Part shown: positions 353-14,973 of the stretch, piece by piece | Position numbering within the stretch: position 1 is the stretch's first letter | Layout: each line of letters opens with the position of its first letter | DNA from: Dickeya chrysanthemi NCPPB 402 | GTDB lineage: Bacteria > Pseudomonadota > Gammaproteobacteria > Enterobacterales > Enterobacteriaceae | Assembly (NCBI RefSeq): GCF_000406105.1 | Contig: NZ_CM001974.1 | Location: 984,835-1,048,834 of the forward strand | Reading direction: 5' to 3' | DNA length: 64,000 nucleotides | Notes under the pieces: model-generated | Database searches by the model: none | Told to the model about the DNA's origin: nothing | What the model saw: only the letters and a program-made list of their open reading frames with translations | Program-made: the position numbers and the translations under genes

Positions 353-1312
353 ATGGCAACAAACAGTAACGGCTCTGCTCCATCCAGACAGCCTTTATCT
401 TCACTTGAGCGAGTTGAAGATAGTCGAGTGTTTTCAGATATCAACATGATAAAAAACCCTCGTTTTACCCTTGATAAAGACGTCATTTTATCTCAATCCA
501 CCCGAACAGCATTAGATGAGTGTCTGGCTCGATTACGCTTTCATAAAACTATCTATGAGCAATGGAATTTTGCTTGTGTTGACCCTATGGGGGTGACAGC
601 CATTCTCAATTTTTATGGTCCGCCGGGAACGGGAAAAACCCTGTGTGCTGAAGCGTTGGCAGGACAACTTCGTATGCCTTTTATTGCGCTAGGGATTGCT
701 GAACTGGAAAGTAAATTTATGGGGGAGACAGCCAAGAATATCCAATTAGCGTTTGCCAAAGCAAAAGAAACAGGCGCATTACTTTTTTTTGATGAAGCAG
801 ACACACTACTTGGTAAACGACTCTCTTCTGTTACACAAGGTGTCGATAATGAAGTGAACGCGATGCGTTCTACCTTACTGATTGAGTTGGAACGCTTTGA
901 AGGTATTGTGATTTTTGCCACTAATTTTGCCCGAAATTACGATGAAGCGTTTCGTAGCCGTATTGGTTATCACGTTGAGTTTACCTTGCCTGATCTTGCT
1001 GCGCGCCAACAGCTATGGAACAAATTTTTGGTTGCGGAGATTCCGTTATCTCAGGCGCGAGAAACGCTGGTAGAGGCTGTCAGCGCTCTTTCTGCAGGGC
1101 TTGCCGGTCGTGAAATTCGTACTTGTATGCGCCTTGCCCTACCTAAGGTTTTGCTGGAAGCCGAACAAGAAGGGATAACGCCACAACTCAGTATCAATCA
1201 CTTACGTAGTGCTATCGAACAAGTTTTTGCTTCTCATCAAGCGATTGCCACGCATTCAGGGCGTACATCGAGTGAAGTCAGCACAGCAAAAAAATTATTA
1301 GGTATCCAATAA
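353..1312 (+). CDS. AAA+ ATPase, first gene of Zorya-like operon
   Basis: A 319-residue AAA+ ATPase of the FtsH/SpoVK-like class with a single ATPase module. Walker A GPPGTGKT is at residues 89-96, Walker B LLFFDEAD at 143-150, sensor-1 IFATN at 187-191, and a candidate arginine finger FRSR at 200-203. An alpha-helical lid follows to about residue 285. No nuclease, protease or membrane domain is seen. The ATG has a good AAGGATG site. The gene starts a tightly packed operon with a helical protein and a MotAB/ZorAB-like pair, so it probably powers assembly or remodelling of a partner. That role is inference; the ATPase assignment is firm. Confidence 0.85.
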   Translation: MATNSNGSAPSRQPLSSLERVEDSRVFSDINMIKNPRFTLDKDVILSQSTRTALDECLARLRFHKTIYEQWNFACVDPMGVTAILNFYGPPGTGKTLCAEALAGQLRMPFIALGIAELESKFMGETAKNIQLAFAKAKETGALLFFDEADTLLGKRLSSVTQGVDNEVNAMRSTLLIELERFEGIVIFATNFARNYDEAFRSRIGYHVEFTLPDLAARQQLWNKFLVAEIPLSQARETLVEAVSALSAGLAGREIRTCMRLALPKVLLEAEQEGITPQLSINHLRSAIEQVFASHQAIATHSGRTSSEVSTAKKLLGIQ

Positions 1313-1331
1313 AAAATAATAGGAGAGAAAA

Positions 1332-2603
1332 ATGGGTTTTTTGTCAAGCGTCAAGAGTTTGTTCAGTAGCGCAAAAAGTTCTGTGACGAGCACGGCTGGA
1401 CGGGCCTGGGATGCAGTTAAAGAAACCGCAGCTAAAGCTGTTTCCTGGATGGCAGAGAAAGCGGAAACCTTTGTAGGAAGTGTAAAAAGCGTTTGGGAGA
1501 AGGTGAAGCCGTTTATCAGTAATGTGATTCGCCCTATCGTGCAGAATGCAGCAAAACTGGCTGGGAAAGCGTTACCGCAATTCCCGTGGATTGGTGGTGC
1601 ATTGCAAGCGTTGGATAAAGCGCTTGGTCTGTTAGTTGAATGGGACAAAAGTGAGTTGGCGAAACGTATTGGTAAAGCCATTGAATGGGCTATACAAAAA
1701 GCCAAACAGCTTAAAGACCTGTTCCTCACGCCGGAAGAAATGGACAAAGCGCGTGAGCATGAAGAAGTGCTACGCGAAGCCCGTAGCCAAATGCGTGGCG
1801 AAGCAGCCAGTGCCGTTGATCTCGCTAGCCTGATAATCCTCTATGCTCAACTTTCCACAAAAATTAAGGATGTAGTGGAGAATATTCAAATCAATGATTT
1901 TGAGCATTATCTTCGTTTGCGTGCCTCTCAAAAGCTGCTGAAAGATACCGAACAACATCTGACTCGTGCGCAGGACATTAATGCGATAACGGATGACGAT
2001 TTGTTCCTGATTGAAACGGGTAACGAATTGTTGAATCCCAATCCACAATTGAGCGATGAAACGGCACAGCGCCTTGATCGCGTTGTGATGGCGCGTTTTG
2101 GTAAGAAACTCATTCCTTTTGTCTTTGAAGAAATGATCATGGCTTGGGGCTATAACCTCCAGGATATGGAAAATGAGTGGAAATCGTTAAATGACGGCCT
2201 TTCCAAAGAGCAGGTATTGCTGCGCCGTTTACAGATCGGTCAGCGCCTTGGGGATCTCCAAGGAGAAGAGGTGGTGATGCTTAGTTCGCTGGAAGCTCGC
2301 TTACCTGAGTTACAGGCTGCGATGGAGGCAAAACGTAAACGTACCAATGAAATGCGCAACTATGTTTTTGCCGCAGAAGGCTTTTTACAGATGTTGGAAA
2401 AAGAACCGGAAGAATTTGCCGGTCAGGAATACCTGATGGAAGACAGCAGCACAGTCGGTATGGTGATTATTGAATGTGCGCAGTTTGGTAAACGTTGGGA
2501 AGATCTTGATAGTGAACAGCAAAGCTTGATTATCGATTTTGCCAACATCTTTGAAAAAGCCAGCCGTGAACGTGCCAGTAAACTAGTTGAGGTGGCAGCA
2601 TGA
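1332..2603 (+). CDS. Amphipathic helix-rich protein of Zorya-like operon
   Basis: A 423-residue protein not matched to any family I can name. The first 130 residues are Lys, Ala, Ser and Trp rich and read as successive amphipathic helices, as in proteins that lie on or insert into membranes. No classical signal peptide or clear transmembrane segment is seen. Residues about 140-415 are charged helices with coiled-coil character. It starts 20 bases after the ATPase gene behind AGGAGAG, and its stop overlaps the start of the MotA-like gene by four bases, so the genes are probably translationally coupled. By position it could be the effector or the client of the ATPase, but this is inference only. 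Confidence 0.6.
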   Translation: MGFLSSVKSLFSSAKSSVTSTAGRAWDAVKETAAKAVSWMAEKAETFVGSVKSVWEKVKPFISNVIRPIVQNAAKLAGKALPQFPWIGGALQALDKALGLLVEWDKSELAKRIGKAIEWAIQKAKQLKDLFLTPEEMDKAREHEEVLREARSQMRGEAASAVDLASLIILYAQLSTKIKDVVENIQINDFEHYLRLRASQKLLKDTEQHLTRAQDINAITDDDLFLIETGNELLNPNPQLSDETAQRLDRVVMARFGKKLIPFVFEEMIMAWGYNLQDMENEWKSLNDGLSKEQVLLRRLQIGQRLGDLQGEEVVMLSSLEARLPELQAAMEAKRKRTNEMRNYVFAAEGFLQMLEKEPEEFAGQEYLMEDSSTVGMVIIECAQFGKRWEDLDSEQQSLIIDFANIFEKASRERASKLVEVAA

Positions 2604-4348
2604 CATTTCATGAGTTCCTTGCGTTCCTGTTACCGGATGTTGAAATTATCCAATTGATGTTCGGTGGAGTGATGTTGTTTCTGGTTCTCATGACGATCGT
2701 ACAGCTTTCACGTCAGGCTAATGTTCAGTTTTGGGAAAATAAATGGCAGGGTAACGTATCCGCAGAATCTACAGACGCGATTGATGTTGAACATGGTTCA
2801 GTGAATGAAATCAGTACGGTCGTTGCTAGTCCGGCAGAGAAAATGGCTGATGTTATGCCTGGGATTTTGTTGATTCTAGGGCTTCTGGGAACGTTCCTTG
2901 GCCTAGGAATCGCACTTAACAAGGCATCGAACATATTGATTGATGCGAATTCCGCAGGAATGGATAGCGCCATGTCCAACCTAATGGGAATGATGGAAGG
3001 GTTAGGGACAAAATTTAAGACCTCTACGTGGGGGATCAGTGCATTCCTGATACTAAAAACTTGGGTTGCCGTAAAAGGCTATGATGAGAAACGCTTGCGC
3101 TGGTGTACACAAAAGATGAAAGCCGCGTTTGAACTCTCTCGCCAAAATAAACGTATCGAACATGAACAAACTCACCAGCGGCTGCTTGATGCATTACAGG
3201 GAGTGGGGGTTTGCACTCAAATTGAGGGGGAAGCAACACGCCAATCGCTACAAATGCTGCACTCTGGGCTAGAGCCTTTATTAAAGATTCTGGTAGAGCA
3301 AGGCCATGAGGCATCGTTACAAGATAAGAACCGAGAAAATCACTTGGCAAAACTCAGCGATGTGTTGCAATCCACACTGCAACTGTTAGTCGCAAGCGAC
3401 CAGGCTCAATCGGAACAGAATCAGCAGCAACTGGCTGAACTGACAACGACGCGTGAATCACTGCAACGTTTTATTGACGCCAATAGCGATAATCTTGTCG
3501 CCATACAACAATCAGCAGGAAAAATGGCTCATGCTGCGCAGGAAATGGGTGATTCAGCAGGAGACTTGCAAGCAGCAATTGGTGATTTCCGTACAGGTAT
3601 TACCGATATGTTGGGAACGGTTAAAAACGATCTTGGTTCAACTATTAATCAAATGGGTGAAAGCTTTAGCCAGAATATGGGCTCGATATCCGCCAGTATG
3701 GCAAATGCGACGGATGGTATTTCCCATGCTGTTTCCGATCTCTCGCAGAACGTTGGCACCACTATGAGTGAAGTGCGCGTTTCTATCGACCAATCTATGA
3801 AAACTCAGCGTGATGCCCAGCGTGAGTTCATGATAACCAGTGAAACATTGAACGAGAAAGTGATCGCCATGACAAAACTGGTTGATGATTTGCGTGAGCA
3901 AATTGTTAATGGGCTTACTGCGGTATCCAACAGCAATCGGCAGGTCGCAAGCCTGAATAACCGCTATGCGGGGATGACGGAGTCTGGCGAGAAAAGTGCA
4001 CTTGCGATCGAAGCGCTGGTTAGTCAACTACAAGTGATGCAACAACATAGTCCCTTGCAATCAGGCATGGACATCATTAATGCAGGTATCAGTCAATTGG
4101 TACGCAGTATTGAATCATTACGTGATGAGATGTTGAGCAGTGCGGATGCATTTACAGCTATCTCTTCGCTGGATAACAGGCTGATTGATGGACTCAAAGA
4201 ATTGAGCGTTATTCGTGAAATACTTTCTTCGCCTGAGCGAGATCGCATAACTCAACAAATTGAACAAAGCCTAAAACCGCTGGCCGCTACGTTACAAAGC
4301 CTTGACCAAACCTTGGTGACACTACACACGGTTAACGACGCCGCCTGA
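2600..4348 (+). CDS. MotA/ZorA-like proton channel subunit with long coiled-coil tail
   Basis: A 582-residue MotA/TolQ/ExbB-type protein with the ZorA layout. Hydrophobic segments lie at about 17-37, 86-106 (including GLLGTFLGL) and 142-158. A very long, mostly helical cytoplasmic tail runs from about 165 to the C terminus. In Zorya, ZorA forms a pentamer around a ZorB dimer and its tail extends into the cytoplasm to signal to effectors. Here the tail of about 415 residues is typical of ZorA rather than flagellar MotA. The start overlaps the previous stop (ATGA) and the ZorB-like gene follows after 11 bases. No zorC, zorD or zorE gene lies next to it. Confidence 0.8.
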   Translation: MTFHEFLAFLLPDVEIIQLMFGGVMLFLVLMTIVQLSRQANVQFWENKWQGNVSAESTDAIDVEHGSVNEISTVVASPAEKMADVMPGILLILGLLGTFLGLGIALNKASNILIDANSAGMDSAMSNLMGMMEGLGTKFKTSTWGISAFLILKTWVAVKGYDEKRLRWCTQKMKAAFELSRQNKRIEHEQTHQRLLDALQGVGVCTQIEGEATRQSLQMLHSGLEPLLKILVEQGHEASLQDKNRENHLAKLSDVLQSTLQLLVASDQAQSEQNQQQLAELTTTRESLQRFIDANSDNLVAIQQSAGKMAHAAQEMGDSAGDLQAAIGDFRTGITDMLGTVKNDLGSTINQMGESFSQNMGSISASMANATDGISHAVSDLSQNVGTTMSEVRVSIDQSMKTQRDAQREFMITSETLNEKVIAMTKLVDDLREQIVNGLTAVSNSNRQVASLNNRYAGMTESGEKSALAIEALVSQLQVMQQHSPLQSGMDIINAGISQLVRSIESLRDEMLSSADAFTAISSLDNRLIDGLKELSVIREILSSPERDRITQQIEQSLKPLAATLQSLDQTLVTLHTVNDAA

Positions 4349-4359
4349 GGGGATTGCTC

Positions 4360-5004
4360 ATGAAAGACAAACCTAATGAGTGGGTCTCCATCTCGGATCT
4401 GATGTCTGGTGTGATGGCGGTTGTGATGTTGCTGTTGGTGATGTCGGTTTTACAAAAGACGTGGTCGGATATCAAACATAAGCAAGAGATGGAGCAAGGG
4501 GCTAATGCACAGCACGCTAAAGTTGGTGAGATGCTAGGTAATATCAAAGCATCGCTTAATGGTACAGAGAATGAAGGCTTAGTGGCACTGGATGTGAATT
4601 TACAAAAAATCACGCTACGTGATGGTGTTTTTAATCGAGGGAGTGCTTGTATTGCCTCACAAGCGAGTCAGGCTTTTACCACAATCGAAATACAGGTAGT
4701 CAAGTTTCTTAACGAGTTCAGTACCGGGCAGGTGTTTATTGAAGGGTATACCGATAACTCGCCCGTCATACGACCGGTAACGAATTTTGAAAGTTTTTGC
4801 ACTGTGTATGACGACAATTTCACGCTATCGGCAGCTCGTGCGAGAGAAGCGCGTAAATTTATCGTGGGCGATCTTGCCCCAGCCATTGCACGTCGGGTGA
4901 TCGTTGCTGGATACGGTGATTCTCAGCCTATCCCGGGTATCCCACCAGAGGATGCTCGTCAGCGGCGTATTGAAGTACGTTTTGTCCTGCCAGAAAGACC
5001 CTAA
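4360..5004 (+). CDS. MotB/ZorB-like protein, OmpA peptidoglycan-binding domain
   Basis: A 214-residue MotB-type stator partner. It has a short cytoplasmic start and one transmembrane helix at about 13-32, beginning WVSISDLMSGVM. Asp13 is placed like the proton-carrying Asp of MotB and ZorB. A periplasmic OmpA-like domain covers about 125-214, with IEGYTD at 127-132, LSAARAREARKF at 156-167 and RQRRIEVRF at 200-208. I chose the ATG at 4360, behind GAGGGG, over a TTG two codons upstream. With the preceding gene it should form an ion-driven membrane motor anchored to peptidoglycan. It is the last gene of the operon; 480 bases without a gene follow. Confidence 0.82.
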   Translation: MKDKPNEWVSISDLMSGVMAVVMLLLVMSVLQKTWSDIKHKQEMEQGANAQHAKVGEMLGNIKASLNGTENEGLVALDVNLQKITLRDGVFNRGSACIASQASQAFTTIEIQVVKFLNEFSTGQVFIEGYTDNSPVIRPVTNFESFCTVYDDNFTLSAARAREARKFIVGDLAPAIARRVIVAGYGDSQPIPGIPPEDARQRRIEVRFVLPERP

Positions 5005-5484
5005 TTTATTGGGTTAATTTAAATGATATTGAGTAATTTCGACTGTAGCCGAGGATAATTTATTTTTACAGCAATGGCCTTTCTTATGGATGGAAAGGCC
5101 AATTATTCCTATATCAAGATAATGGCAAGCGAGAAGATATTATTTTCAAGTAATTATCTGTTTGAATCACCACGGTTTTAACAGACTTGGCTGTTGTCAT
5201 CTTTGTGCCAGATGTCGTCGCCGCTCAAGCGGCAATCGTTGGGCAAAATTTATTCCCTGAATCGGTAATTTTAGGGGCACATGATCTGGACTAGCATGAA
5301 TTATATACGGCCAGTAATTGGCGAGAAATACTATACTCATGGCCGGTTATAGCCTTGGTTATTGTTAATAAGTTACCTGCTCTCTAAAATTTTTCAGACA
5401 TATATCATTTCCCTGAACGCAACATCATTACGGCGAATCTCTCAAGGATTCGCCTTTTTTGTTTTATGTGTCTCAGGAGATGTC
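5005..5484. other. Intergenic region after Zorya-like operon
   Basis: No complete gene is visible. A 27-bp hairpin with 9-bp arms lies at 5075-5101 and may end the Zorya-like transcript, though no T-run follows it. A 42-codon open frame at 5166-5294 ends in a plausible protein-like stretch but has no start or ribosome-binding site, so it is at most a remnant. The last 60 bases contain a strong terminator. Confidence 0.5.
5432..5462 (+). terminator. Rho-independent terminator
   Basis: An inverted repeat GGCGAATC/GGATTCGCC is followed by a run of six T. It sits about 25 bases ahead of the GTPase gene, so it ends either a short transcript from the preceding intergenic region or an attenuated leader. 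A small RNA starting near 5340 is possible. Confidence 0.7.
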
Positions 5485-6351
5485 ATGAGAAATCAGGAAG
5501 GCCTACATTTGTTGCAGGCCTCACTCACGGACTTACCAGAATGGGCCTCAGAACGAGTCATGCAGCATATCCGGCAGTTGACCCACTACGAGCCGGTTAT
5601 CGGCATTATGGGCAAGACCGGTGCAGGCAAGAGCAGCCTGTGTAATGCGCTGTTCGCCGGTGAGGTGTCGCCGGTCAGTGATGTGTCGGCCTTTACCCGT
5701 GAGCCGTTGCGCTTGCGCCTTAACGTGGGTGAGCGTTGCATGACGCTGGTAGACCTGCCCGGTGTCGGTGAAAGTGAACGGCGTGATATTGAGTATGCCG
5801 CGATGTATCGCCAGCAACTTCCGCATCTCGATCTGGTGCTGTGGCTAATCAAGGCCGATGACCGGGCGCTGGCAGTGGACGAGCACTTTTACCATCAGGT
5901 GATTGGCGAAGCCTGGCGGCACAAGGTGTTGTTTGTGGTCAGTCAGGCGGACAAGATTGAACCCACTGAGGGTGGCGTGAAGGCGTTGTCTGCCAAACAA
6001 CGGCAAAGCCTTGCGCGCAAAATCGCCCTGCTGCACACCCTGTTTTTGCCGGTGCACCCGGTCTGCGCGGTTTCGGTGCGGCTGCGCTGGGGGCTGTCGC
6101 ACATGGCGGCGCTGATGGTGGCAAGCCTGCCACGCGAAGCCAGCAGCCCGCTGGTCACACAGCTACAGCCGCCCCTTCGTAGCGAACGCGTTACTCAAAA
6201 AGCCCGTGATGATTTTGCCGATACGGTGGGCAGCACGCTCGATACCGTCAGCCGTCTGCCGCTGATACCGGCCACGGTGCGCACGCTTATTCAGACGCTG
6301 CGCGATACCGTGGTGTCCGTGGCCCGCGCTTTGTGGGCGGTGTTCTTCTAA
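5485..6351 (+). CDS. yfjP: YfjP/YeeP-family GTPase
   Basis: A 288-residue P-loop GTPase (50S ribosome-binding-like superfamily) of the YfjP/YeeP/YkfA group carried by CP4-type islands. G1 is GKTGAGKS at 43-50, a G2 Thr lies near 71, G3 is DLPG at 90-93 and G4-like SQADK is at 153-157. The C-terminal third is hydrophobic enough for membrane association. The ATG at 5485 follows CAGGAGA; longer upstream readings run through the terminator at 5432-5462 and were rejected. Length and position ahead of a DUF932 gene match the yfjP-yfjQ order of CP4-57. The cellular function in these islands is not established. Confidence 0.85.
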   Translation: MRNQEGLHLLQASLTDLPEWASERVMQHIRQLTHYEPVIGIMGKTGAGKSSLCNALFAGEVSPVSDVSAFTREPLRLRLNVGERCMTLVDLPGVGESERRDIEYAAMYRQQLPHLDLVLWLIKADDRALAVDEHFYHQVIGEAWRHKVLFVVSQADKIEPTEGGVKALSAKQRQSLARKIALLHTLFLPVHPVCAVSVRLRWGLSHMAALMVASLPREASSPLVTQLQPPLRSERVTQKARDDFADTVGSTLDTVSRLPLIPATVRTLIQTLRDTVVSVARALWAVFF

Positions 6352-6380
6352 GTCGATTACCCATCCATTTTCGTTTTCCG

Positions 6381-6414
6381 AGCCCGGTCGCCTGTGCGAC
6401 CGGGCTTTTTATTT
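6381..6414 (+). terminator. Terminator between GTPase and DUF932 genes
   Basis: The arms AGCCCGGTCG and CGACCGGGCT form a stable GC-rich hairpin followed by TTTTTATTTT. It lies 30 bases after the GTPase stop and 24 bases before the next start, so the two genes are probably separate transcripts or linked by readthrough. Confidence 0.85.
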
Positions 6415-6437
6415 TCAGCCATCTCAAGGAGTCTGCC

Positions 6438-7271
6438 ATGACCCGTCTGGCCTCGCGCTTTGGCGCAGCAAACCTTATCCGCCGTGACCGTCCGTTAACC
6501 CGCGAAGAGCTGTTTCGCACCGTACCCAGTGTGTTCAGTGAGGAAAAGCATGAGTCCCGCAGCGATCGATACACTTACATTCCGACGATTACCCTTCTGG
6601 ATAATTTACAACGTGAAGGCTTCCAGCCGTTCTTTGCCTGCCAGACCCGCGTGCGCGACGACAGCCGTCGCGAGCACACCAAACACATGCTGCGCCTGCG
6701 TCGGGAAGGGCAAATCACCGGCCATCAGGTGCCGGAAATCATCCTGCTCAACAGCCATGACGGCTCCAGCAGCTACCAGATGCTGCCGGGGCTGTTCCGA
6801 CAGGTGTGCCAGAACGGGCTGATTTGTGGCGAAAGTTTTGGCGAGGTGCGGGTACCCCATAAAGGCGATGTGGTGGGCCGGGTGATTGAAGGCGCGTATG
6901 AGGTGCTGGATACCTTTGAGCGCATCGAGGAAAAGCGCGATGCCATGCAGTCGTTGCTGTTGCCGCCTCCGGTGCAATCCGCGCTGGCAAACGCCGCCCT
7001 GACGTACCGTTTTGGTGAGGCGCATCAGCCGGTGACGGCAGCGCAAATCCTGACGCCGCGCCGCTGGCAGGACGACCGGCAAGACCTGTGGACTACCTTT
7101 CAGCGTATTCAGGAGAACCTGATAAAGGGCGGGCTGCCCGGTCGCAACCCGCAGGGGAAACGGGCCCGCACCCGTGCCGTCAGCAGCATCGACAACGATG
7201 TGCGGCTCAACCGGGCGCTGTGGGTGCTGGCGGAAAGTCTGCTGACGCAGTGTCAGGGGGGAGCATGTTAA
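6438..7271 (+). CDS. yfjQ: DUF932 protein, YfjQ/YafZ family
   Basis: A 277-residue DUF932 protein like YfjQ, YafZ and YeeP-adjacent proteins of CP4 islands and many plasmids. The recognisable core is about residues 45-200, including the segments YIPTITLLDNL, LLNSHDGSSSYQM and CQNGLICGES. These are characteristic of the family, which is related to plasmid and phage proteins of unknown biochemical role. I chose the ATG at 6438 with AAGGA seven bases upstream, after the terminator at 6381-6414. No membrane or export signal is seen. The order GTPase, DUF932, WYL regulator matches yfjP-yfjQ-yfjR. Confidence 0.85.
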   Translation: MTRLASRFGAANLIRRDRPLTREELFRTVPSVFSEEKHESRSDRYTYIPTITLLDNLQREGFQPFFACQTRVRDDSRREHTKHMLRLRREGQITGHQVPEIILLNSHDGSSSYQMLPGLFRQVCQNGLICGESFGEVRVPHKGDVVGRVIEGAYEVLDTFERIEEKRDAMQSLLLPPPVQSALANAALTYRFGEAHQPVTAAQILTPRRWQDDRQDLWTTFQRIQENLIKGGLPGRNPQGKRARTRAVSSIDNDVRLNRALWVLAESLLTQCQGGAC

Positions 7272-7472
7272 CCGCGAGTTAAAATTGGACACACCCTGTC
7301 CGTTTCACTTTGGTTTGAAGGTCTGTTTCTTCACCAACATCAACGGAAACCTGCATGATATCTGTGTTTATCCGTAAGTGAAAAATAGTCGTTGAACTGT
7401 CCATATCCTGTCCGCCCCCCTCTTTAGAATCACCTTCATATTCTGTCGGTTAATCATCACGGAGATTTACAT
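7272..7472 (+). promoter_or_regulatory. Promoter region with two CCTGTCCG repeats
   Basis: This region lies ahead of the WYL-type regulator. The octamer CCTGTCCG occurs twice in the same orientation, at 7295-7302 and 7407-7414, with a further CTGTCC at 7397. Spaced direct repeats ahead of a regulator suggest its own operators, but this is inference. CGGAGA at 7460-7465 serves the next gene. Confidence 0.4.
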
Positions 7473-8183
7473 ATGACACAGGCAGAGCGCCGCCATGACC
7501 GGCTTGCTGTCAGGCTGTCACTGATAATCAGCCGCCTGGTTGCCGGTGAAACGCTGAATGTGGCCCGGCTGGCTGCCGAGTTTGGCGTGTCAACCCGCAC
7601 CTTGCGGCGGGATTTTCGCGAGCGGCTGATGTATCTGGACTTGGAATACAGTCAGGGACATTGCCGCCTGCGCACCCTGGGTGGTGGAGTACAGGGGGCG
7701 CTGGATGCCCTGACCTTTGCACACCGGGCCGGACTTGCCGATATTTTTCCGGGGCTGGACCGGCGTCTGGCAGGTACGTTACTGACTGCCGGAGGGATGC
7801 CCTGCCTGGTTTGGCAGCCACCCCAGGCAATATCCCCCGGCAGCGCACTGGTGTTTTATCGGCTGGTCAGTGCCATTATCGCGTTTCAGCGGGTTCTGCT
7901 TCTGGCCGACGGGGAACGCTGTGACGGACTGGCACCGTACCGCCTGATATCCCTCGATGGTCGCTGGTATCTGACCGGCGAACTGAACGGGCATATCACG
8001 GTTCACCTGCTGACGGCCATTCATGCTGTAACGGTATTGAACACCACCTTTATCCCACGAAAGCGCCTGAGCCACTTAACCACACAAGCGGGCTTTATCC
8101 AGGCACTTCCGCACTTTGGCTTTATTCGTACCGTTCTATCACCAGCACCATCTGAAAAAATCAAAGAGGATTCAGCCAGTTAA
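7473..8183 (+). CDS. yfjR: HTH and WYL-domain transcriptional regulator (YfjR-like)
   Basis: A 236-residue regulator with an N-terminal DeoR-type winged helix at about 20-70. The recognition helix region reads FGVSTRTLRRDF. A WYL domain follows, with the diagnostic PYRLISLDGRWYL near residues 150-165. WYL domains sense nucleic acid or nucleotide ligands in several phage-defence and DNA-damage regulators. YfjR of CP4-57 has the same position and build. The ATG at 7473 follows GGAGA. It may control the exported proteins downstream or the whole block, and two CCTGTCCG repeats upstream are candidate sites. Confidence 0.8.
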   Translation: MTQAERRHDRLAVRLSLIISRLVAGETLNVARLAAEFGVSTRTLRRDFRERLMYLDLEYSQGHCRLRTLGGGVQGALDALTFAHRAGLADIFPGLDRRLAGTLLTAGGMPCLVWQPPQAISPGSALVFYRLVSAIIAFQRVLLLADGERCDGLAPYRLISLDGRWYLTGELNGHITVHLLTAIHAVTVLNTTFIPRKRLSHLTTQAGFIQALPHFGFIRTVLSPAPSEKIKEDSAS

Positions 8184-8250
8184 GTCTGAATTCTCATTGG
8201 GGTATATCTGTAGATGATAATAAAAGTTAATACATTTTAAGGATGTCACA

Positions 8251-8817
8251 ATGAAGAAAATACTGGGTACGATGATACTGGCCGGTAGCCTGATATTAAC
8301 TGGCAACACTCATGCCTACGATATTACGGGTAATGTGAAACACTGGATGGCAATGAAAGAGAGCGGCTGGACTTCCGCTGACGGTTATGACGATGACAGG
8401 ATGATGAATGCACTGGGTTTTAATGCCGCCATGATTGGTTATTATCCGTGGACTCATACATTTTTAATCCGCAGGGACTACGATACAGCGTTGTTCCTGG
8501 CTGACAAAAAAAGCAAAACTGTTCGCCGCCTGAATCTCAAAACGGCCAGTGGTTATAATTCTGACCTTGATGTGGTGTATCAGGGAGAGGATAACGGCAA
8601 AGGCTGCTATGTCAGCATTATAGATACTCAAGTTCAGCTTGAGCTCATCAATCAAAAAGCAACCCCCCAGGTGTTAATGGTCCTTCCCGAACAGTGTATT
8701 GATAAAAAACAACTGGCAGCCATTAAAGCCCGACAATCAGAAAGGGATCGCCAGTTACAGCAATGGGTAGCACAACAGAGTATGAAAGAACTCTGTCGTC
8801 GTAACGGAAATTGTTGA
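8251..8817 (+). CDS. Exported protein, YfjS-like
   Basis: A 188-residue predicted exported protein. A Lys-Lys start and a hydrophobic core at about 7-20 form a signal peptide, followed by LILTGNTHA with likely cleavage after THA. The mature part has no motif I recognise. It holds two Cys near 114 and 149 and two more at the C terminus (CRRNGNC), which could form disulfides in the periplasm. It sits between the YfjR-like regulator and a YfjT-like gene, as yfjS does in CP4-57. Related proteins there are annotated as lipoproteins, but no lipobox Cys is present here. Function unknown. Confidence 0.6.
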   Translation: MKKILGTMILAGSLILTGNTHAYDITGNVKHWMAMKESGWTSADGYDDDRMMNALGFNAAMIGYYPWTHTFLIRRDYDTALFLADKKSKTVRRLNLKTASGYNSDLDVVYQGEDNGKGCYVSIIDTQVQLELINQKATPQVLMVLPEQCIDKKQLAAIKARQSERDRQLQQWVAQQSMKELCRRNGNC

Positions 8818-8845
8818 TGTTAGTTTTTTCAACTCTGGGGGAAAT

Positions 8846-9313
8846 ATGAAATATAAACATCACGCGCTGCTGTTTGCATTATCTTGTATTGCCACAACGG
8901 CTCAGGCCATACCGAATATGTGGACCAGCGGCTTTGGCATGGGTGTCTCCGAATACATGATCACCAGCCCGGAAAAGGTCGTTTTTAATCTCAACTGTAC
9001 GACTAATCCAGACAACCAAAAGGTATTACAACACCATGTACTTATCACGCTGCCTGATGGTAGAGGGGCGGATTCGCATGACGAGAAAACGGTTATAACC
9101 GTGGTGGTGGACTCTCGGCAATTTCCACTCCCTTCTTCTCTGGGGTGGCGTAACGCAGATAATGCATGGGAACGATTTATTACCGCGTTAAGTCATGCCG
9201 CAACGTTTGATGTTTACGTTAATGACCAAAAAGTAGGCCACTTTAATCCTGGGCTTAAAAATACACAGCAGGAGCTGGAGGGTATTCACCACTGTATCAA
9301 TACTGCCGCTTAA
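8846..9313 (+). CDS. yfjT: Exported protein, YfjT-like
   Basis: A 155-residue predicted periplasmic protein. A signal peptide covers about 1-22 (hydrophobic core ALLFALSCIATTAQA, cleavage after AQA). The mature part is beta-rich, with Cys near 51 and 150 that could pair. Length and position fit YfjT of CP4-57, also 155 residues. It starts 28 bases after the previous gene behind GGGGGAA and is followed by a terminator, so the two exported proteins probably form one unit. No function is known for the family. Confidence 0.6.
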   Translation: MKYKHHALLFALSCIATTAQAIPNMWTSGFGMGVSEYMITSPEKVVFNLNCTTNPDNQKVLQHHVLITLPDGRGADSHDEKTVITVVVDSRQFPLPSSLGWRNADNAWERFITALSHAATFDVYVNDQKVGHFNPGLKNTQQELEGIHHCINTAA

Positions 9314-9336
9314 ACCTTACTTGCCTATTCCGATGG

Positions 9337-9374
9337 TGCCCTTGTTGCTTATGCAACAGGGGCATTTTGTTTTT
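9337..9374 (+). terminator. Terminator after exported-protein pair
   Basis: TGCCCTTGTTGC pairs with GCAACAGGGGCA across a TTAT loop, with one mismatch, followed by TTTTGTTTTT. It lies 24 bases after the preceding stop and ends just before the RadC-like gene. Confidence 0.85.
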
Positions 9375-9386
9375 AAGGATCACGTT

Positions 9387-9860
9387 ATGTCTGAATTCTC
9401 ACCGAGTTCGCCGTTGTCTGAGCACGAACAACGGATTATCCGCCGGGCCCAGCGCCTGCTGGAGCGCCACCTGCGCCAGCCGGGCGAGCAGTTTACCGCC
9501 TCATCCTATACCCGAATGTGGCTGCAACTGCATCTGGCCCCGCTGGAGCGGGAGGTGTTCATGGTGCTGTTTCTCGATAACCAGCATCGCCTGATAGACC
9601 GGGAAACCATGTCGCTGGGCAGCATCAACCATGTCGATATTCCCATCAGAGAAATCGTCAAGGCGGCCCTGCGCCACAACGCGGCGGCGGTGATCCTGGC
9701 GCACAATCACCCATCCGGCCATGCCGAACCGAGCACGCCAGACCGGGCGCTTACCGAACGGCTAAAAAGCGCTCTTGAGCTGGTGGATATCCGCACGCTG
9801 GATCATCTGGTCATTGGCGGCAGTCAGGTGGTGTCGTTCGCCGAACGCGGCTGGCTGTAA
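9387..9860 (+). CDS. RadC-like JAB domain protein (YfjY/YeeS)
   Basis: A 157-residue RadC/MPN (JAB) domain protein of the YfjY/YeeS/YkfG group. The metal-binding JAMM motif is intact: HNHPSG at 106-111 with the downstream Asp at 119 (PSTPD). A glutamate near residue 55 (PLEREVF) fits the upstream acidic residue of the motif. The helix-hairpin-helix region of long chromosomal RadC is absent, as usual in island versions. The ATG at 9387 follows AAGGA; upstream in-frame ATGs overlap the terminator and were rejected. The gene lies immediately upstream of a CbeA/CbtA pair, the standard arrangement. The true function of RadC proteins is unresolved. Confidence 0.88.
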   Translation: MSEFSPSSPLSEHEQRIIRRAQRLLERHLRQPGEQFTASSYTRMWLQLHLAPLEREVFMVLFLDNQHRLIDRETMSLGSINHVDIPIREIVKAALRHNAAAVILAHNHPSGHAEPSTPDRALTERLKSALELVDIRTLDHLVIGGSQVVSFAERGWL

Positions 9861-9904
9861 GGCCTTTCGCTGTCATTCCATTAACCTGTCAGGAGAAAAG
9901 TACC

Positions 9905-10261
9905 TTGTCATTATCGGATGCCCCGGAATGGGGGCTTGAACACACCCTGAAACCGCGCTTTGGAGCCCGGCTGGTACAGGAAGGGTGTCACCTGCATTTT
10001 CTCGCCGATCGTGCCGGTGTGACTGGCACCTTCAGTGCAACCGTGGCCTGCCATCTGGAACACCGTTTCCCACTGATGGTGAAACAACTGGAGCAAAAGC
10101 TTGTGACCGGTGAGCTCGATCCCTACCGACAGCAACGCGTCACGCTGCATGACGGCGTACTGACCTGCGAGGCCGATACACTGGGCAGTGCGGGCTACGT
10201 CTATATCACGATTTACCCGACCACGGCGGCCACACCGGCAACTGCATTCCCTTCACCTTAA
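9905..10261 (+). CDS. cbeA: Antitoxin of CbeA/YeeU/YfjZ family
   Basis: A 118-residue YeeU/YfjZ/YafW-type antitoxin. Typical landmarks are WGLEHTLKPRFGARLVQEG at 9-27, HFLADRAGVTGTF near 30-42 and the C-terminal LTCEADTLGSAGYVYI. In type IV systems CbeA does not bind the toxin but promotes bundling of the toxin targets FtsZ and MreB. A TTG start at 9905 is chosen because AGGAG lies ten bases upstream and the family begins here. It precedes the toxin gene by 25 bases and follows the RadC-like gene. Confidence 0.88.
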   Translation: MSLSDAPEWGLEHTLKPRFGARLVQEGCHLHFLADRAGVTGTFSATVACHLEHRFPLMVKQLEQKLVTGELDPYRQQRVTLHDGVLTCEADTLGSAGYVYITIYPTTAATPATAFPSP

Positions 10262-10286
10262 GCATTTATCTTAAGAGAGCCTATCC

Positions 10287-10607
10287 ATGGAAACACCATC
10301 CCCATCCCCGGCGCGGGAGGCATCATCATGCCTGTCACCTGTAAATGTCTGGCAACAGTTATTAACTTACCTGCTGGACAAGCACTACGGGCTGACGCTC
10401 AACGACACGCCGTTTTGCGAGGAAGCCGAGATCCAGGCCCACCTCGACGCCGGAGTTTCGCTGCCGGACGCCGTGAACTTTCTGGTGGAGCGCTATGAGC
10501 TGGTGCGTATCGATCGCAGCGGTTTTATCTGGCAGGAACAACAACCGTTTCTGAACGCGGTCGATATTCTCCGCGCCAGACGCGCCACCGGCCTGCTCAA
10601 GCCATAA
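10287..10607 (+). CDS. cbtA: Toxin of CbtA/YeeV/YpjF family
   Basis: A 106-residue CbtA/YpjF/YkfI-type toxin that inhibits polymerisation of FtsZ and MreB in studied members. Family landmarks are [15 protein letters not shown] at about 29-43, [18 protein letters not shown] at 53-70 and [11 protein letters not shown] near the end. It ends soon after RATGL, about 18 residues shorter than E. coli YeeV, which is a common short form. It is cotranscribed with the antitoxin and followed by a terminator hairpin at 10669-10698. Confidence 0.88.
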
Positions 10608-10668
10608 AGACTGCGAGCCGCTTTCCAGTCACACAACGCCAAACCGATTAATCCTTCCCCCCGATGCA

Positions 10669-10698
10669 TAATACGCCAGCCTTACCGGCTGGCGTATT
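10669..10698 (+). terminator. Hairpin after toxin gene
   Basis: AATACGCCAGC pairs with GCTGGCGTATT to form a long stable stem, 62 bases after the toxin stop. No long T-run follows. It falls inside the longest upstream reading of the DUF4942 gene, which argues for that gene starting later, at 10724. Confidence 0.6.
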
Positions 10699-10723
10699 GG
10701 CTGTTATGTATGGACAACACACT

Positions 10724-11557
10724 ATGCACACTGAACCCGAGGTGTTAACCGACCACACCGAACTGATTGGCTCGACCAACATTGCGCGTATCGTCACTGG
10801 ACATGATGCCGCGCTGCAACAGATAGAACAGCTCATTACCCAGTTACAGGCTATTTCAACGCTAACGGCGACTATCGGTGGCGGCACCGCTGAAGACTGG
10901 GCATTGAAGCCAGGGCATCGCTATGATTGCTGGCTGACAGAAACGCCTGACAAGGCGATGCCAGCCATTATCCGCACGCTGGACAGCCATATCTGGCGCA
11001 ACCTGATGCTGAAATCCGGCATGTTGTCATTGATGGACGCACAAGCCCGCAGCCAGTGGCATAAGAATCTGGACGAGGGCGACCTGCCGACCATCAGCGA
11101 AGCCAATATTCTCAGCACGTTTGAACAACTTCACCAGAGTAAGCGGGAGGTATTCGAACGCGGGGTGATTAATGTATTCAAGGGGCTATCGTGGGATTAT
11201 AAAACCAACCATCCTTGCTACTTTGGCAAGAAAATCATCATCAGCAATCTGGTGACGTACCACCGTTGGGGCTTTGGCCTGAACTGGGGCTGGCGACGCG
11301 ATCAACTGGCCGATCTGGAGCGGATGCTGTCCTTGCTGGATGGCAAACCCATTCCTGATAACCGGGGCGATGTGACTATCCGGCTAATGAACCATATCCG
11401 TGATAATCCTCATCAGCAAGAATACGAAGATGCGTATTTTAGTGTGCGTTACTTTCAGAAAGGCACCGGGCATCTCATCTTTAAACGCCCTGACTTGATC
11501 GATCAGATGAACGACATTATCGCCAAACATTATCCGGGGATGTTGGCGGCGAGGTAG
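10724..11557 (+). CDS. DUF4942 protein
   Basis: A 277-residue DUF4942 protein of the kind often found as third gene after CbeA/CbtA pairs. The recognisable C-terminal part, about residues 120-277, includes SKREVFERGVINVFKGLSWD and YFSVRYFQKGTGHLIFKRPD. No catalytic motif is obvious. I start it at the ATG at 10724 because the longer frame runs through the hairpin at 10669-10698, though no strong ribosome-binding site is seen. Function unknown; the association with the toxin-antitoxin pair is recurrent in CP4-type islands. Confidence 0.75.
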   Translation: MHTEPEVLTDHTELIGSTNIARIVTGHDAALQQIEQLITQLQAISTLTATIGGGTAEDWALKPGHRYDCWLTETPDKAMPAIIRTLDSHIWRNLMLKSGMLSLMDAQARSQWHKNLDEGDLPTISEANILSTFEQLHQSKREVFERGVINVFKGLSWDYKTNHPCYFGKKIIISNLVTYHRWGFGLNWGWRRDQLADLERMLSLLDGKPIPDNRGDVTIRLMNHIRDNPHQQEYEDAYFSVRYFQKGTGHLIFKRPDLIDQMNDIIAKHYPGMLAAR

Positions 11558-11628
11558 TCATTTCCTTTCTGGTAATCTTAGGATTCGTGCCTATTTCCTC
11601 CCTCAGAATTTGTTATTATTGCGGCAGG

Positions 11629-11646
11629 TTAGCATTGAATTGCTAA
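11629..11646 (+). promoter_or_regulatory. Palindrome ahead of darTG
   Basis: A perfect inverted repeat TTAGCA-N6-TGCTAA lies 16 bases upstream of the darT start and downstream of an AT-rich segment resembling a -10 box. Toxin-antitoxin operons are often autoregulated from such sites, so this is a candidate operator, by inference. Confidence 0.4.
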
Positions 11647-11661
11647 AAGGAGCTGGTTTGT

Positions 11662-12309
11662 ATGCCGATCCCTGAGCGTCCCAAGATTTACCACATCCTT
11701 CACATCGATCGACTTCGTTCGATCATTGCCCAAGGGTTGTTGTCTGACGAGCAAATCTCGGTTCGTCATGGTGCCGGTACAATGATAGGTATGAGTAGCA
11801 TTAAGCAGCGTCGGCTCCATGAGTTGACGCTCACAAACTATCCCAATCTGTATGTGGGACAATGTGTGCCTTTTTATTTTTGTCCCCGCTCTGTCATGCT
11901 ATACCTGATATACAAGTCCAATCATCCAGAGTTGGCTTACCGTGGTGGTCAGGAACCTATTTTGCATCTTGAAGCTGACCTCTATACAACCATTGCATGG
12001 GCGGAGCAACATCGCCAACGCTGGGCGTTTACATTATCTAATGCCGGTTCACTTTACTTCGAAGATCGTTGTCAACAATCCCAGCTTGGAGAACTGAACT
12101 GGGAAGCGATACAAAGCAATCAGTGGAGCGGCGGTAATGGAACTAAAGAGGCGAAACAGGCTGAGTTTTTGATTGAGCGCTGTTTCCCTTGGCATTTAAT
12201 TGAGCGCATCGGTGTTCATTCACCTTTGATTTATCAGCAGGTTGCTAACATGATCCCGCTTGGCGGGCATCGTCCTCCTGTTGAGGTGAAACGAGAATGG
12301 TACTACTGA
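11662..12309 (+). CDS. darT: DarT DNA ADP-ribosyltransferase toxin
   Basis: A 215-residue DarT (DUF4433) toxin, which uses NAD+ to ADP-ribosylate thymidine in single-stranded DNA in characterised members. The NAD-binding start is IYHILHIDRLRSII at 9-22. Downstream are VPFYFCPRSVMLY at 69-81 and the ADP-ribosylating-turn-loop region with KEAKQAEFLIER, where Glu168 fits the catalytic glutamate. Length is normal. It follows AAGGAGC and precedes darG by 13 bases. DarTG acts as a toxin-antitoxin pair and as anti-phage defence, in keeping with the island setting. Confidence 0.93.
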   Translation: MPIPERPKIYHILHIDRLRSIIAQGLLSDEQISVRHGAGTMIGMSSIKQRRLHELTLTNYPNLYVGQCVPFYFCPRSVMLYLIYKSNHPELAYRGGQEPILHLEADLYTTIAWAEQHRQRWAFTLSNAGSLYFEDRCQQSQLGELNWEAIQSNQWSGGNGTKEAKQAEFLIERCFPWHLIERIGVHSPLIYQQVANMIPLGGHRPPVEVKREWYY

Positions 12310-12322
12310 TGAGGATTTCATA

Positions 12323-13372
12323 ATGATTGAATACAGACAGGGCGATATCCTCCAGGCAGAGACTGAAGCTATCATCAATACCGTTAATTGCGTCGGCGTA
12401 ATGGGGCGAGGCATTGCATTGCAATTTAAAAATGCCTACCCGGATAACTTCAAAGCTTATGCTGCATCCTGTAAAGCAAAACAAGTTGTTCCGGGCAAAA
12501 TGTTCGTCTTTGAGACCGGGCAGTTAACAAACCCTCGTTATATCATTAACTTTCCGACCAAACGCCACTGGAAAGGGAAAAGTCGTCTTGAAGATATTGT
12601 TGCAGGATTGGACGATTTGGTCGCCGTTATCCGGCAACATGATATTCGCTCCATTGCCATTCCCCCATTAGGGAGTGGCTTAGGCGGCCTGGACTGGCAA
12701 GATGTTAAGCCCCTGATTGAGTCTGCCGTTCAACCGCTTGAGTCCGTACAAATTGCGATTTACGATCCCAACGGCGCACCATCATCGGAACGTATGGTAC
12801 ATAAAACAGAAGTGCCAAAGATGACAGCAGGGCGAGCCGCATTGGTTGAACTGATGCAGCGTTATCTTAATGGGTTGTTAGATCCGTTCATCTCTTTACT
12901 AGAATTACATAAGCTGATGTATTTCATGCAAGAATCCGGGGAACCATTACGCCTTAAGTATCAGAAAGCGCATTATGGGCCTTATGCGGAAAACCTACGG
13001 CATGTGCTTAACGCGATCGAGGGGCATATGATCTCAGGGTATTCGGATGGCGGTGATATGCCTGATAAGCAACTCGCGCTGGTTCCCGGTGTGGCAGAGG
13101 AAGCAAAAGCGTTTCTTGAGCAGCAAGAAGAGACTTACCGCCGCTTTCAGAAAGTATCTGATTTGGTAGAAGGTTTCGAATCGCCTTTTGGTTTGGAACT
13201 CCTTTCAACGGTTCACTGGACAATGCAATATGAATCGCTGACGTCCCCGGAAGATGTTACTGATTTTATCTATGCCTGGAATGAAAGAAAGCGGCAATTC
13301 ACACCACGTCAGATATCTTTAGCCGTAGATACATTGCATCGTAAGGGGTGGTTAACTTCAAACGTTGCTTAA
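12323..13372 (+). CDS. darG: DarG macrodomain antitoxin
   Basis: A 349-residue DarG. The N-terminal macrodomain, about 1-155, removes ADP-ribose from DNA. It shows INTVNCVGVMGRGIALQFK near 18-36, the GKSRLEDI segment near 88-95 and the phosphate-binding loop PPLGSGLGGLDW near 113-124. The C-terminal half, about 165-349, is the YwqJ-unrelated helical domain that in DarG proteins blocks the toxin directly. It contains LHKLMYFMQESGE, resembling the SocA/Panacea-type antitoxin fold. The start follows GAGGA. It is the second gene of the darTG operon. Confidence 0.92.
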   Translation: MIEYRQGDILQAETEAIINTVNCVGVMGRGIALQFKNAYPDNFKAYAASCKAKQVVPGKMFVFETGQLTNPRYIINFPTKRHWKGKSRLEDIVAGLDDLVAVIRQHDIRSIAIPPLGSGLGGLDWQDVKPLIESAVQPLESVQIAIYDPNGAPSSERMVHKTEVPKMTAGRAALVELMQRYLNGLLDPFISLLELHKLMYFMQESGEPLRLKYQKAHYGPYAENLRHVLNAIEGHMISGYSDGGDMPDKQLALVPGVAEEAKAFLEQQEETYRRFQKVSDLVEGFESPFGLELLSTVHWTMQYESLTSPEDVTDFIYAWNERKRQFTPRQISLAVDTLHRKGWLTSNVA

Positions 13373-13444: not shown

Positions 13445-14764
13445 TTACTTACCACCAAACTGAACTTTAACGACATTATCTGGCATCGCCCCTGATGGGT
13501 TAATGATTTCCTGCTGAATAAAATCACCCCAGCGTAGAAATAGCTTTTTCAGTTTGTCCGCTTGTTGCCCAACTTGATAAGTCCGAATTAATCGATCTTT
13601 AGGAACGTGGTTCAGCAGAAGTTCTATCAAGCGTTCTGGTGCATCCAAATATTCTGCACAACCAGTGGCCACGCTGCGACGTAAGTCATGAGGAGAGAAG
13701 GGCGTAAGTTCCGCAAGATATTTAGATCTCACACGTTCCAGAGCACGTGTGAGGGCATCACCGGTTATAGGAAATCCAGACTTGCTGGTGGAGCCGAAAA
13801 CATACGCCCCTTCAGTGATCACGCGCTGTTCTTGAATGAGGGATAAGGCGTGGGGATGTAGTGTGACAATGTGGCTTTTGCCATTTTTTGTAGCAGGAAT
13901 AGTCCAACGATCACCGTTAATTTGATCCCAACGCATTTCTGCTGCTTCTGACCGGCGAACACCCGTGAATATGATCAGGCGAAGTGCATTCGCAACGGAT
14001 AATGACATCACCACGCTCGATGCTATTCCTCGACCACCTGCTGCAATGGAGCCACCACCAACAGAGGCTTCATCAAGTGCTTTCCAAAGCATGTGGAGTT
14101 CGTTTTGTGGTAACCAACGTTCACGAGGTTTACCCATTGATGCGCCAAACATGGCAGGTTTGAGTAGACGAGCAGGGTTATGTTCAATCAGTCCTTGTAA
14201 CGTGGCATGATCAAGGGCCAGATTCAGGATGATTAATCCTTTGCGAACCCCTTCTGAGCTTTCCTTTCTCACGCGGCTGAGATGCTCGAAAATGACAGAG
14301 CGTGAAAGATCGTTAACGCGTATATTGCCCAAAGCTTTTTCAAGATGACGGCGATAGGTTCCTTCATAGTCAGCAATGGTGCGGGCGCTGAGGGGTTTAC
14401 TCTCAGTTCTGAATGCCAACCAGTTTTGCCACAAGTCAGCGAATATTGGCATTTGCTCGTTTTGCTGTTTCTCATTTTTTTTGACGTAACGAGGATCAAT
14501 GCCTTTCTTCACCAGCTCTGCTGCGTCGGCATGGGCCTGACGAGCCTGAGCCAAGCTCATAGCAGGGTAGCTACCCAATGTCAGTTTGATTTGCTTTTGT
14601 GCGATCCTGTAACGATAAATCCAGCTTTTACTCTCGCTGCCATAGCGTACGCGAACGTAGAGGCCTCCACCCGCTTTTGATTTGACTGAGACAACGTTTT
14701 CTTTCTCTTCTTCAGTGACTGAAAGGGATGCCAACTGTCGATCCTGAGTGATGATGATTGTCAT
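13445..14764 (-). CDS. int: P4-type tyrosine integrase
   Basis: A 439-residue tyrosine recombinase of the island/P4 type. An Arm-binding DUF4102-like region covers about 30-95 (YRYRIAQKQIKLTLGSYP and an A-R-x-x-A pattern). A SAM-like core-binding domain covers 105-205 and the catalytic domain 215-415. The catalytic Arg is in TGVRRSE (Arg270), HDLRR is at 359-363 and the Tyr nucleophile is probably Tyr396 in RTYQVG. All key residues are present, so it looks functional. It faces the tRNA-derived attachment repeat 165 bases upstream of its start and probably integrated this island. It is convergent with darG. Confidence 0.92.
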   Translation of the reverse strand: MTIIITQDRQLASLSVTEEEKENVVSVKSKAGGGLYVRVRYGSESKSWIYRYRIAQKQIKLTLGSYPAMSLAQARQAHADAAELVKKGIDPRYVKKNEKQQNEQMPIFADLWQNWLAFRTESKPLSARTIADYEGTYRRHLEKALGNIRVNDLSRSVIFEHLSRVRKESSEGVRKGLIILNLALDHATLQGLIEHNPARLLKPAMFGASMGKPRERWLPQNELHMLWKALDEASVGGGSIAAGGRGIASSVVMSLSVANALRLIIFTGVRRSEAAEMRWDQINGDRWTIPATKNGKSHIVTLHPHALSLIQEQRVITEGAYVFGSTSKSGFPITGDALTRALERVRSKYLAELTPFSPHDLRRSVATGCAEYLDAPERLIELLLNHVPKDRLIRTYQVGQQADKLKKLFLRWGDFIQQEIINPSGAMPDNVVKVQFGGK

Positions 14765-14928: not shown

Positions 14929-14973
14929 TTCGTAATGCGAAGGTCGTAGGTTCGACTCCTATTATCGGCACCA
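14929..14973 (+). repeat. Attachment site: 3' part of tRNA-Thr (thrW type)
   Basis: Forty-five bases identical, as far as I recall the gene, to the 3' part of E. coli thrW, from the CGT anticodon loop through the T arm (GGTTCGACTCC) to CCA. The 5' half of the tRNA is absent, so this is the distal attachment core. The intact tRNA should lie to the left, beyond the window. It marks the right end of the island. Confidence 0.85.

Follow-up and report, generated by a model that had tools for sequence, protein, structure and literature searches.

Zorya antiphage systems combine the motor proteins ZorA and ZorB with partners that differ between types, ZorC and ZorD in type I, ZorE in type II and ZorF and ZorG in type III. 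The IetAS system consists of the ATPase IetA and the serine protease IetS. Here we report on a four-gene set at positions 353-5004 of a 64,000-nucleotide stretch of the Dickeya chrysanthemi NCPPB 402 genome (the window, meaning the whole stretch), where a ZorA-like and a ZorB-like subunit are accompanied instead by an AAA+ ATPase and a helical protein. Because a Zorya-type motor is paired here with these two proteins and with no DNA-cutting enzyme, the set looks like a new kind of antivirus machine.

For defence, Zorya I and II depend on the tail of ZorA and on the Asp residue and peptidoglycan-binding domain of ZorB, and the described types work via DNA-directed effectors, as stated in the accessible portion of one study (PMC11890865). 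Types I-III are the only ones described in the literature that we found, as far as its accessible portions go. We found no description of the four-gene set in the literature on Zorya, IetA, stators with AAA and DefensePredictor that could be searched, and a description may exist elsewhere. The accessible portions of PMC12505986 and PMC13092281 yielded none either.

All four genes lie on the forward strand. The first encodes ATP (353..1312, 319 amino acids), a single-module classical AAA+ ATPase with GPPGTGKT as Walker A and FFDEAD as Walker B, and the second HEL (1332..2603, 423 amino acids), a helical protein with an amphipathic N-terminus and without a transmembrane (TM) segment or a named family. 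They are followed by ZA (2600..4348, 582 amino acids), a motor subunit that resembles ZorA and has TM segments and a long helical tail, and ZB (4360..5004, 214 amino acids), a ZorB-like subunit with one TM segment holding Asp13 and an OmpA-type peptidoglycan-binding domain. The ZB start is taken as ATG 4360, where the list of open reading frames (ORFs) has TTG 4354.

The ORF and profile scans bear out the four identities, AAA+, helical, ZorA-like and ZorB/OmpA-like, that a preliminary description had read from the sequence. The tight spacing that it claimed, overlapping or 11-20 bases, measures 19 nucleotides (nt) between ATP and HEL, a 4-nt overlap of HEL and ZA, and 11 nt from ZA to the ATG of ZB. 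The HEL/ZA overlap is kept at 1-4 nt in 24 of the 25 other and own loci that span the set, the exception being L009 under the ORF choice made.

In each of the 25 loci fetched on contigs long enough to span the set, ATP, HEL, ZA and ZB occur together and in the same order, as expected from the earlier claim that they make one functional unit. The loci come from Enterobacterales, Pseudomonas, Psychrobacter and Burkholderiales, and comprise the window itself, those of a scan with HEL as bait, and others from E. coli, plasmid, phage-labelled and IMG/VR sequences. They are partly non-independent, L004 (Dickeya oryzae) and the window sharing one island. Contig ends truncate L014, L036 and the split L021/L026, and L026 has ZA as two ORFs.

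The HEL-bait scan covered 84,980 genomes, one per species, and returned 23 loci in 22 genomes, a lower bound under the strict patterns used. HEL served as the bait for most loci, so its constant presence is conditional on that choice. Correlations between the distance sets of the four proteins, taken over 24 loci, have r of 0.929-0.969, and for each of the six pairs none of 2000 permutations is as high.

The other baits agree with the HEL bait, though their results are few. With ZA, 369 genomes of the class gave a strong match at the own locus only, five others reaching 19-25 bits, and the plasmids gave one record. With ATP, the plasmids gave 20 records, of which only a Paraburkholderia one (60%) belongs to the ATP family of the set, and the viral contigs gave three loci, namely one already-known contig, L096 (cut by the contig end) and L097 (a distant AAA, 31%). 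ZB found the same two contigs among the viral ones.

The occurrence is patchy, in 2 of 97 relatives and 2 of 9 within the genus, and of the 5426 E. coli genomes searched at near-mode sensitivity, one has the set. The ZBs of the E. coli locus L002 and the Erwinia locus L005 are near-identical on the tree, which speaks for transfer. That this might be a phage or plasmid gene set was considered and rejected, its only such carriers being one plasmid, one unverified 'Bacteriophage sp.' contig and two IMG/VR contigs.

The unverified and unannotated 'Bacteriophage sp.' contig, L037 (MT835507.1) from human faeces, holds the four-gene set, with a ZB that very closely resembles the one of the Pseudomonas locus L017, so L037 may be bacterial DNA.

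ZB matches the PADLOC ZorB1 model at 2.1e-17 and OmpA (Pfam) at 1.8e-7, and Asp13 and the OmpA-type residues do not vary in any of the 15 sequences aligned. The ZorB-like OmpA partner with an early Asp, as first proposed, is upheld. Its score against the NCBIfam ZorB1 model is 22.4 bits, with 400 needed. A tree with 9, 9 and 8 ZorBs drawn with the ZorB1, ZorB2 and ZorB3 models places the 17 new ZBs in one group with a support of 100/99, or 97/98 without MotB.

The ZB of the window is 20.6-26.1% identical to the ZorB1 set, 16.7-21.7% to the ZorB2 set and 20.0-23.5% to the ZorB3 set, and the best pairs between these three sets themselves are 23.1-29.5% identical. In the tree the ZorB1 set is split, long branches come together and the order of the groups is unsettled. 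ZB stands outside all three ZorB groups.

ZA matches the PADLOC ZorA models weakly, the best being ZorA1 at 1.8e-9, and stays below the NCBIfam cut-offs with 25 bits for ZorA_1 (190 needed) and 14 for ZorA_2 (100 needed). When a profile of 18 ZA sequences is compared with the PDB, the sole stator-type chains matched are those of ZorA (8vvn at 3.9e-7, 8qyk at 0.012, 8qyh and 8qyy weaker), the remaining matches being mostly coiled coils and helical bundles. The predicted ZA model is poor, with a predicted local distance difference test (pLDDT) score of 58; its best PDB matches, none better than E 0.05, are chains of ExbB and ZorA, and the helical tail appears in this low-confidence model.

In an alignment with ZorA from unnamed Zorya loci, T98 in TM2 and T141-S142 in TM3 of ZA fall on the GTFxG and TS positions, and T98, T141, S142 and T143 are the same in all 26 ZA sequences. 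The same motor Thr/Ser positions align also with ExbB/TolQ-type proteins. The set resembles Zorya in its long-tailed ZorA-like subunit, in the TM Asp and the peptidoglycan-binding domain of its ZorB-like subunit and in the conserved TM Thr/Ser. The conserved motor residues suggest that the motor half should work as it does in Zorya.

The membrane domain of ZA is well conserved. The tail differs between loci in both length and sequence, and ZA ranges from 520 to 732 amino acids in the spanning loci. The other members of the set are constant.

ATP matches PF00004 at 1.5e-26 in the Pfam scan, and its Walker A and B residues G89, P91-T96, D147 and E148 are invariant in 17 of 17 sequences. Its nearest solved chains are VCP/p97, Afg2, Rix7 and Cdc48, which are AAA proteins that remodel proteins, and for this likeness we call ATP a protein-remodelling kind. 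The CdvC model also matches ATP, at 5.8e-21. Pfam finds no MIT domain on it, the first invariant residue comes not before L40, and its amphipathicity is at the shuffle level (269 of 500 shuffles as high).

Among the defence models the nearest to ATP is IetA, with 4.3e-30 in PADLOC, which would suit an IetA-type ATPase system in which ATP works together with HEL and the motor has an accessory part. ATP reaches 100.7 bits against the NCBIfam cut-off of 510, however, and neither HEL, ZA nor ZB matches a protease model of PADLOC, Pfam or NCBIfam, so that the set differs from IetAS in having motor genes and no protease gene. HEL belongs to no other family either, and ZA and ZB are as constant in the set as ATP and HEL are. 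We regard this explanation as quite improbable.

More distant ATPase relatives on plasmids, at 36-39% identity, were inspected in 5 of 20 records. Those of Moraxella (L100:4010-6431), Comamonas (L102:2866-5145) and Synechococcus (L103:2442-4873) lie beside three small ORFs, some hydrophobic or amphipathic, with the hydrophobic stretches judged by eye, and one small ORF is common to L100 and L102 at 33% identity. L101 and L104 have no such neighbours, and L104 is a contractile-injection cluster. As a hint to the output of the set, these small neighbours are a lead only.

HEL matches no PADLOC or NCBIfam model and no Pfam model above the cut-off, and is a conserved protein family that is nameless in all three, with 233 homologues among 7998 scored candidates. 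Its predicted model is all helical, with a pLDDT of 74.6 and a predicted template-modelling score of 0.65, and matches no solved fold at E<=0.001. A fold comparison with ESCRT-III gave weak helical rows only.

Residues 1-80 of HEL have a mean hydrophobic moment of 0.417, compared with 0.200 (standard deviation 0.039) in shuffles, none of 500 of which is as high. Residues 85-184 and 185-423 are less amphipathic, with 8 and 16 of 500 shuffles as high, and no segment reaches the TM threshold used. A classical AAA beside a helical amphipathic protein recalls Vps4 or CdvC with ESCRT-III, as a comparison of the way of working only.

The DNA-directed effectors of Zorya were sought around the set. No PADLOC model of ZorC-G, a helicase or a nuclease matches the ORFs of 100 or more amino acids at 353-13372 or two of three upstream island ORFs, in agreement with the first observation that no helicase or HNH gene lies in the operon or the following 6 kb. 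Eleven such ORFs lie between 5362 and 13372, all scanned with PADLOC and six of them also with Pfam. For the loci besides the window, the effector scans give the best 25 families per pool. In the converse search, ATP or HEL relatives at E<=0.01 are present in none of 18 stretches (5-18 kb) around ZorB1/ZorB2-type genes and none of 8 ZorB3 stretches (3.6 kb).

These results bear on whether the set is an ordinary Zorya, with ATP and HEL as adaptors and the DNA damaged by nucleases encoded elsewhere. The motor features on ZA and ZB and the DNA-directed effectors of the described types (in the accessible portion of PMC11890865) would fit it. It is made improbable by the missing effector models in the scanned island ORFs, by the lack of ATP and HEL at the ZorB1/ZorB2-type genes and by the completeness of the set in all 25 loci, with none of the tested window genes joining it as a constant fifth member.

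Both Zorya-like proteins are far below the NCBIfam ZorA and ZorB1 cut-offs and ZB is outside the ZorB1-3 groups, so the suggestion that the set is undescribed stands. The two outcomes named beforehand as fatal to it did not appear: no search placed the set in a described Zorya subtype or another named system, and the genes are kept together elsewhere.

With the gene set, its conservation, the working residues, the amphipathicity and the island setting observed directly, the four genes probably constitute a conserved antiphage unit, defence being what we infer from them. That they are an antiphage system of an undescribed type, mobile and powered by ZorAB, taken as a whole with its mechanism, appears evenly balanced between right and wrong, and in this judgement the motor and the defence core weigh most. 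A membrane-directed output is conceivable but falls somewhat short of that balance.

In the mechanism that we propose, ZA and ZB would form an ion-driven motor of the 5:2 type anchored to the peptidoglycan, as their homology implies. By analogy with Zorya I and II, infection would perturb the envelope, ions would pass Asp13 and the long ZA tail would move. The tail may then act on HEL and the AAA+ ATPase, recruiting no nuclease or helicase. HEL would bind the inner membrane via its amphipathic N-terminal helix, assemble, and block or break the membrane at the injection site, and the ATPase might load, activate or take apart HEL. This specific scheme, a ZorAB rotary motor driving a membrane-remodelling module of AAA+ and amphipathic scaffold to seal or break the inner membrane where the phage injects, with membrane work and not DNA cleavage as the output, is speculative and rather unlikely to hold in full.

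In the described Zorya types, ZorAB is coupled to effectors directed at DNA. A partner set that is constant and lacks such an effector would make ZorAB a general infection sensor and transducer that can be wired to different outputs. Module swapping could then test how the motor movement becomes defence.

The set lies in an integrase-type island at tRNA-Thr, with proA (8zok, 3.5e-200) and the tRNA-Thr to the left of the window. The integrase at the right end (13445..14764, reverse strand) matches solved N-terminal domains named 'Phage integrase' at 2.3e-9 and 'CP4-like integrase' at 5.8e-7. Just past it, an exact 23-bp copy of the tRNA-Thr 3' end (L043:9687-9709) forms the attachment (att) repeat at 14951..14973 on the forward strand, with a chance expectation of 0.00, so the island is about 20.1 kb long. 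The integrase matches only that of L004 at E<=1e-8, implying that the other islands use different integrases or none nearby.

Elsewhere the neighbours include NERD-UvrD and SoFic (L015), HNH (L024) and type I restriction about 7 kb off (L002). Thirty flanking genes from 16 loci were scanned singly, intended as the nearest of at least 150 amino acids on each side, which they are not for L011 downstream, L017 downstream and L025 upstream; 10 of 30 match PADLOC at 1e-8. Two pools, together holding 147 flanking ORFs from 27 loci, gave the best 25 of 54 and the best 25 of 192 families at 1e-8. The control, four 20-kb stretches of the own genome with 69 ORFs, yielded 24 families, each in one member, families and not genes being counted. 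These data are suggestive of defence genes around the set and fall short of a measured enrichment.

In the Pseudomonas loci, JukB homologues (L009:14577-15710 and L010:14655-15551) and a JukA-like gene (L018:14201-16021) lie directly downstream of the operon.

Several points weigh against a Zorya-like defence system. For ZB the MotB-family models and the solved MotB/PomB chains outscore the ZorB ones (6ysf, a MotB, at 3.8e-14 vs ZorB 8vvn at 1e-7 and 8qyd at 5.3e-6), so the motor may not be strictly a Zorya one, and with a single non-Zorya stator in the tree the placement of ZB inside Zorya is not demonstrated. The flanking genes are metabolic too, with ammonium and amino-acid transport, non-ribosomal peptide synthetase parts, TonB receptors and a diol-dehydratase reactivase, and 20 of the 30 singly scanned ones have no PADLOC match, while 3 of the 10 matches are generic WYL regulators. 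Residues 1-58 of the HEL model are below pLDDT 50, so a membrane role of HEL is proposed from its sequence.

Some of these points would suit a machine of the envelope, driven by ions, whose work benefits the host or the island and is not phage defence, for example in Tol-Pal-like maintenance, under the control of HEL and the ATPase. The motor fold is common to MotAB, ExbBD and TolQR stators, ZB is near MotB by profile score, and several loci sit amid metabolic genes. Here, however, the ZA tail is long, the partners are AAA+ and HEL, and the setting is an integrase island with an att repeat. The patchy occurrence, the near-identical ZBs of the E. coli and Erwinia loci and the defence genes adjoining several loci also disfavour it. 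We hold the envelope machine to be unlikely and favour the antiphage unit.

Within the island of the window, a complete-looking darTG is present at 11662-13372 (PADLOC DarT 5.8e-65, DarG 1.1e-142). The earlier statement that the island also carries darTG is correct as to its presence, but the link is only local. After the operon comes a dynamin-like GTPase gene at 5362-6351 (MMR_HSR1 1.5e-14, Dynamin_N 7.3e-10, weak LeoBC/LeoA), and then DUF932. Of the 28 loci searched, only the sister island L004 carries the GTPase, DUF932, DUF4942 and darTG genes as well, and darTG and the GTPase were rejected as members of the system. To the left of the window in the own genome, dinB (DNA polymerase IV; L043:1112-2170) is split by an in-frame stop in the assembly, its second part matching 4ir1 at 1.9e-98.

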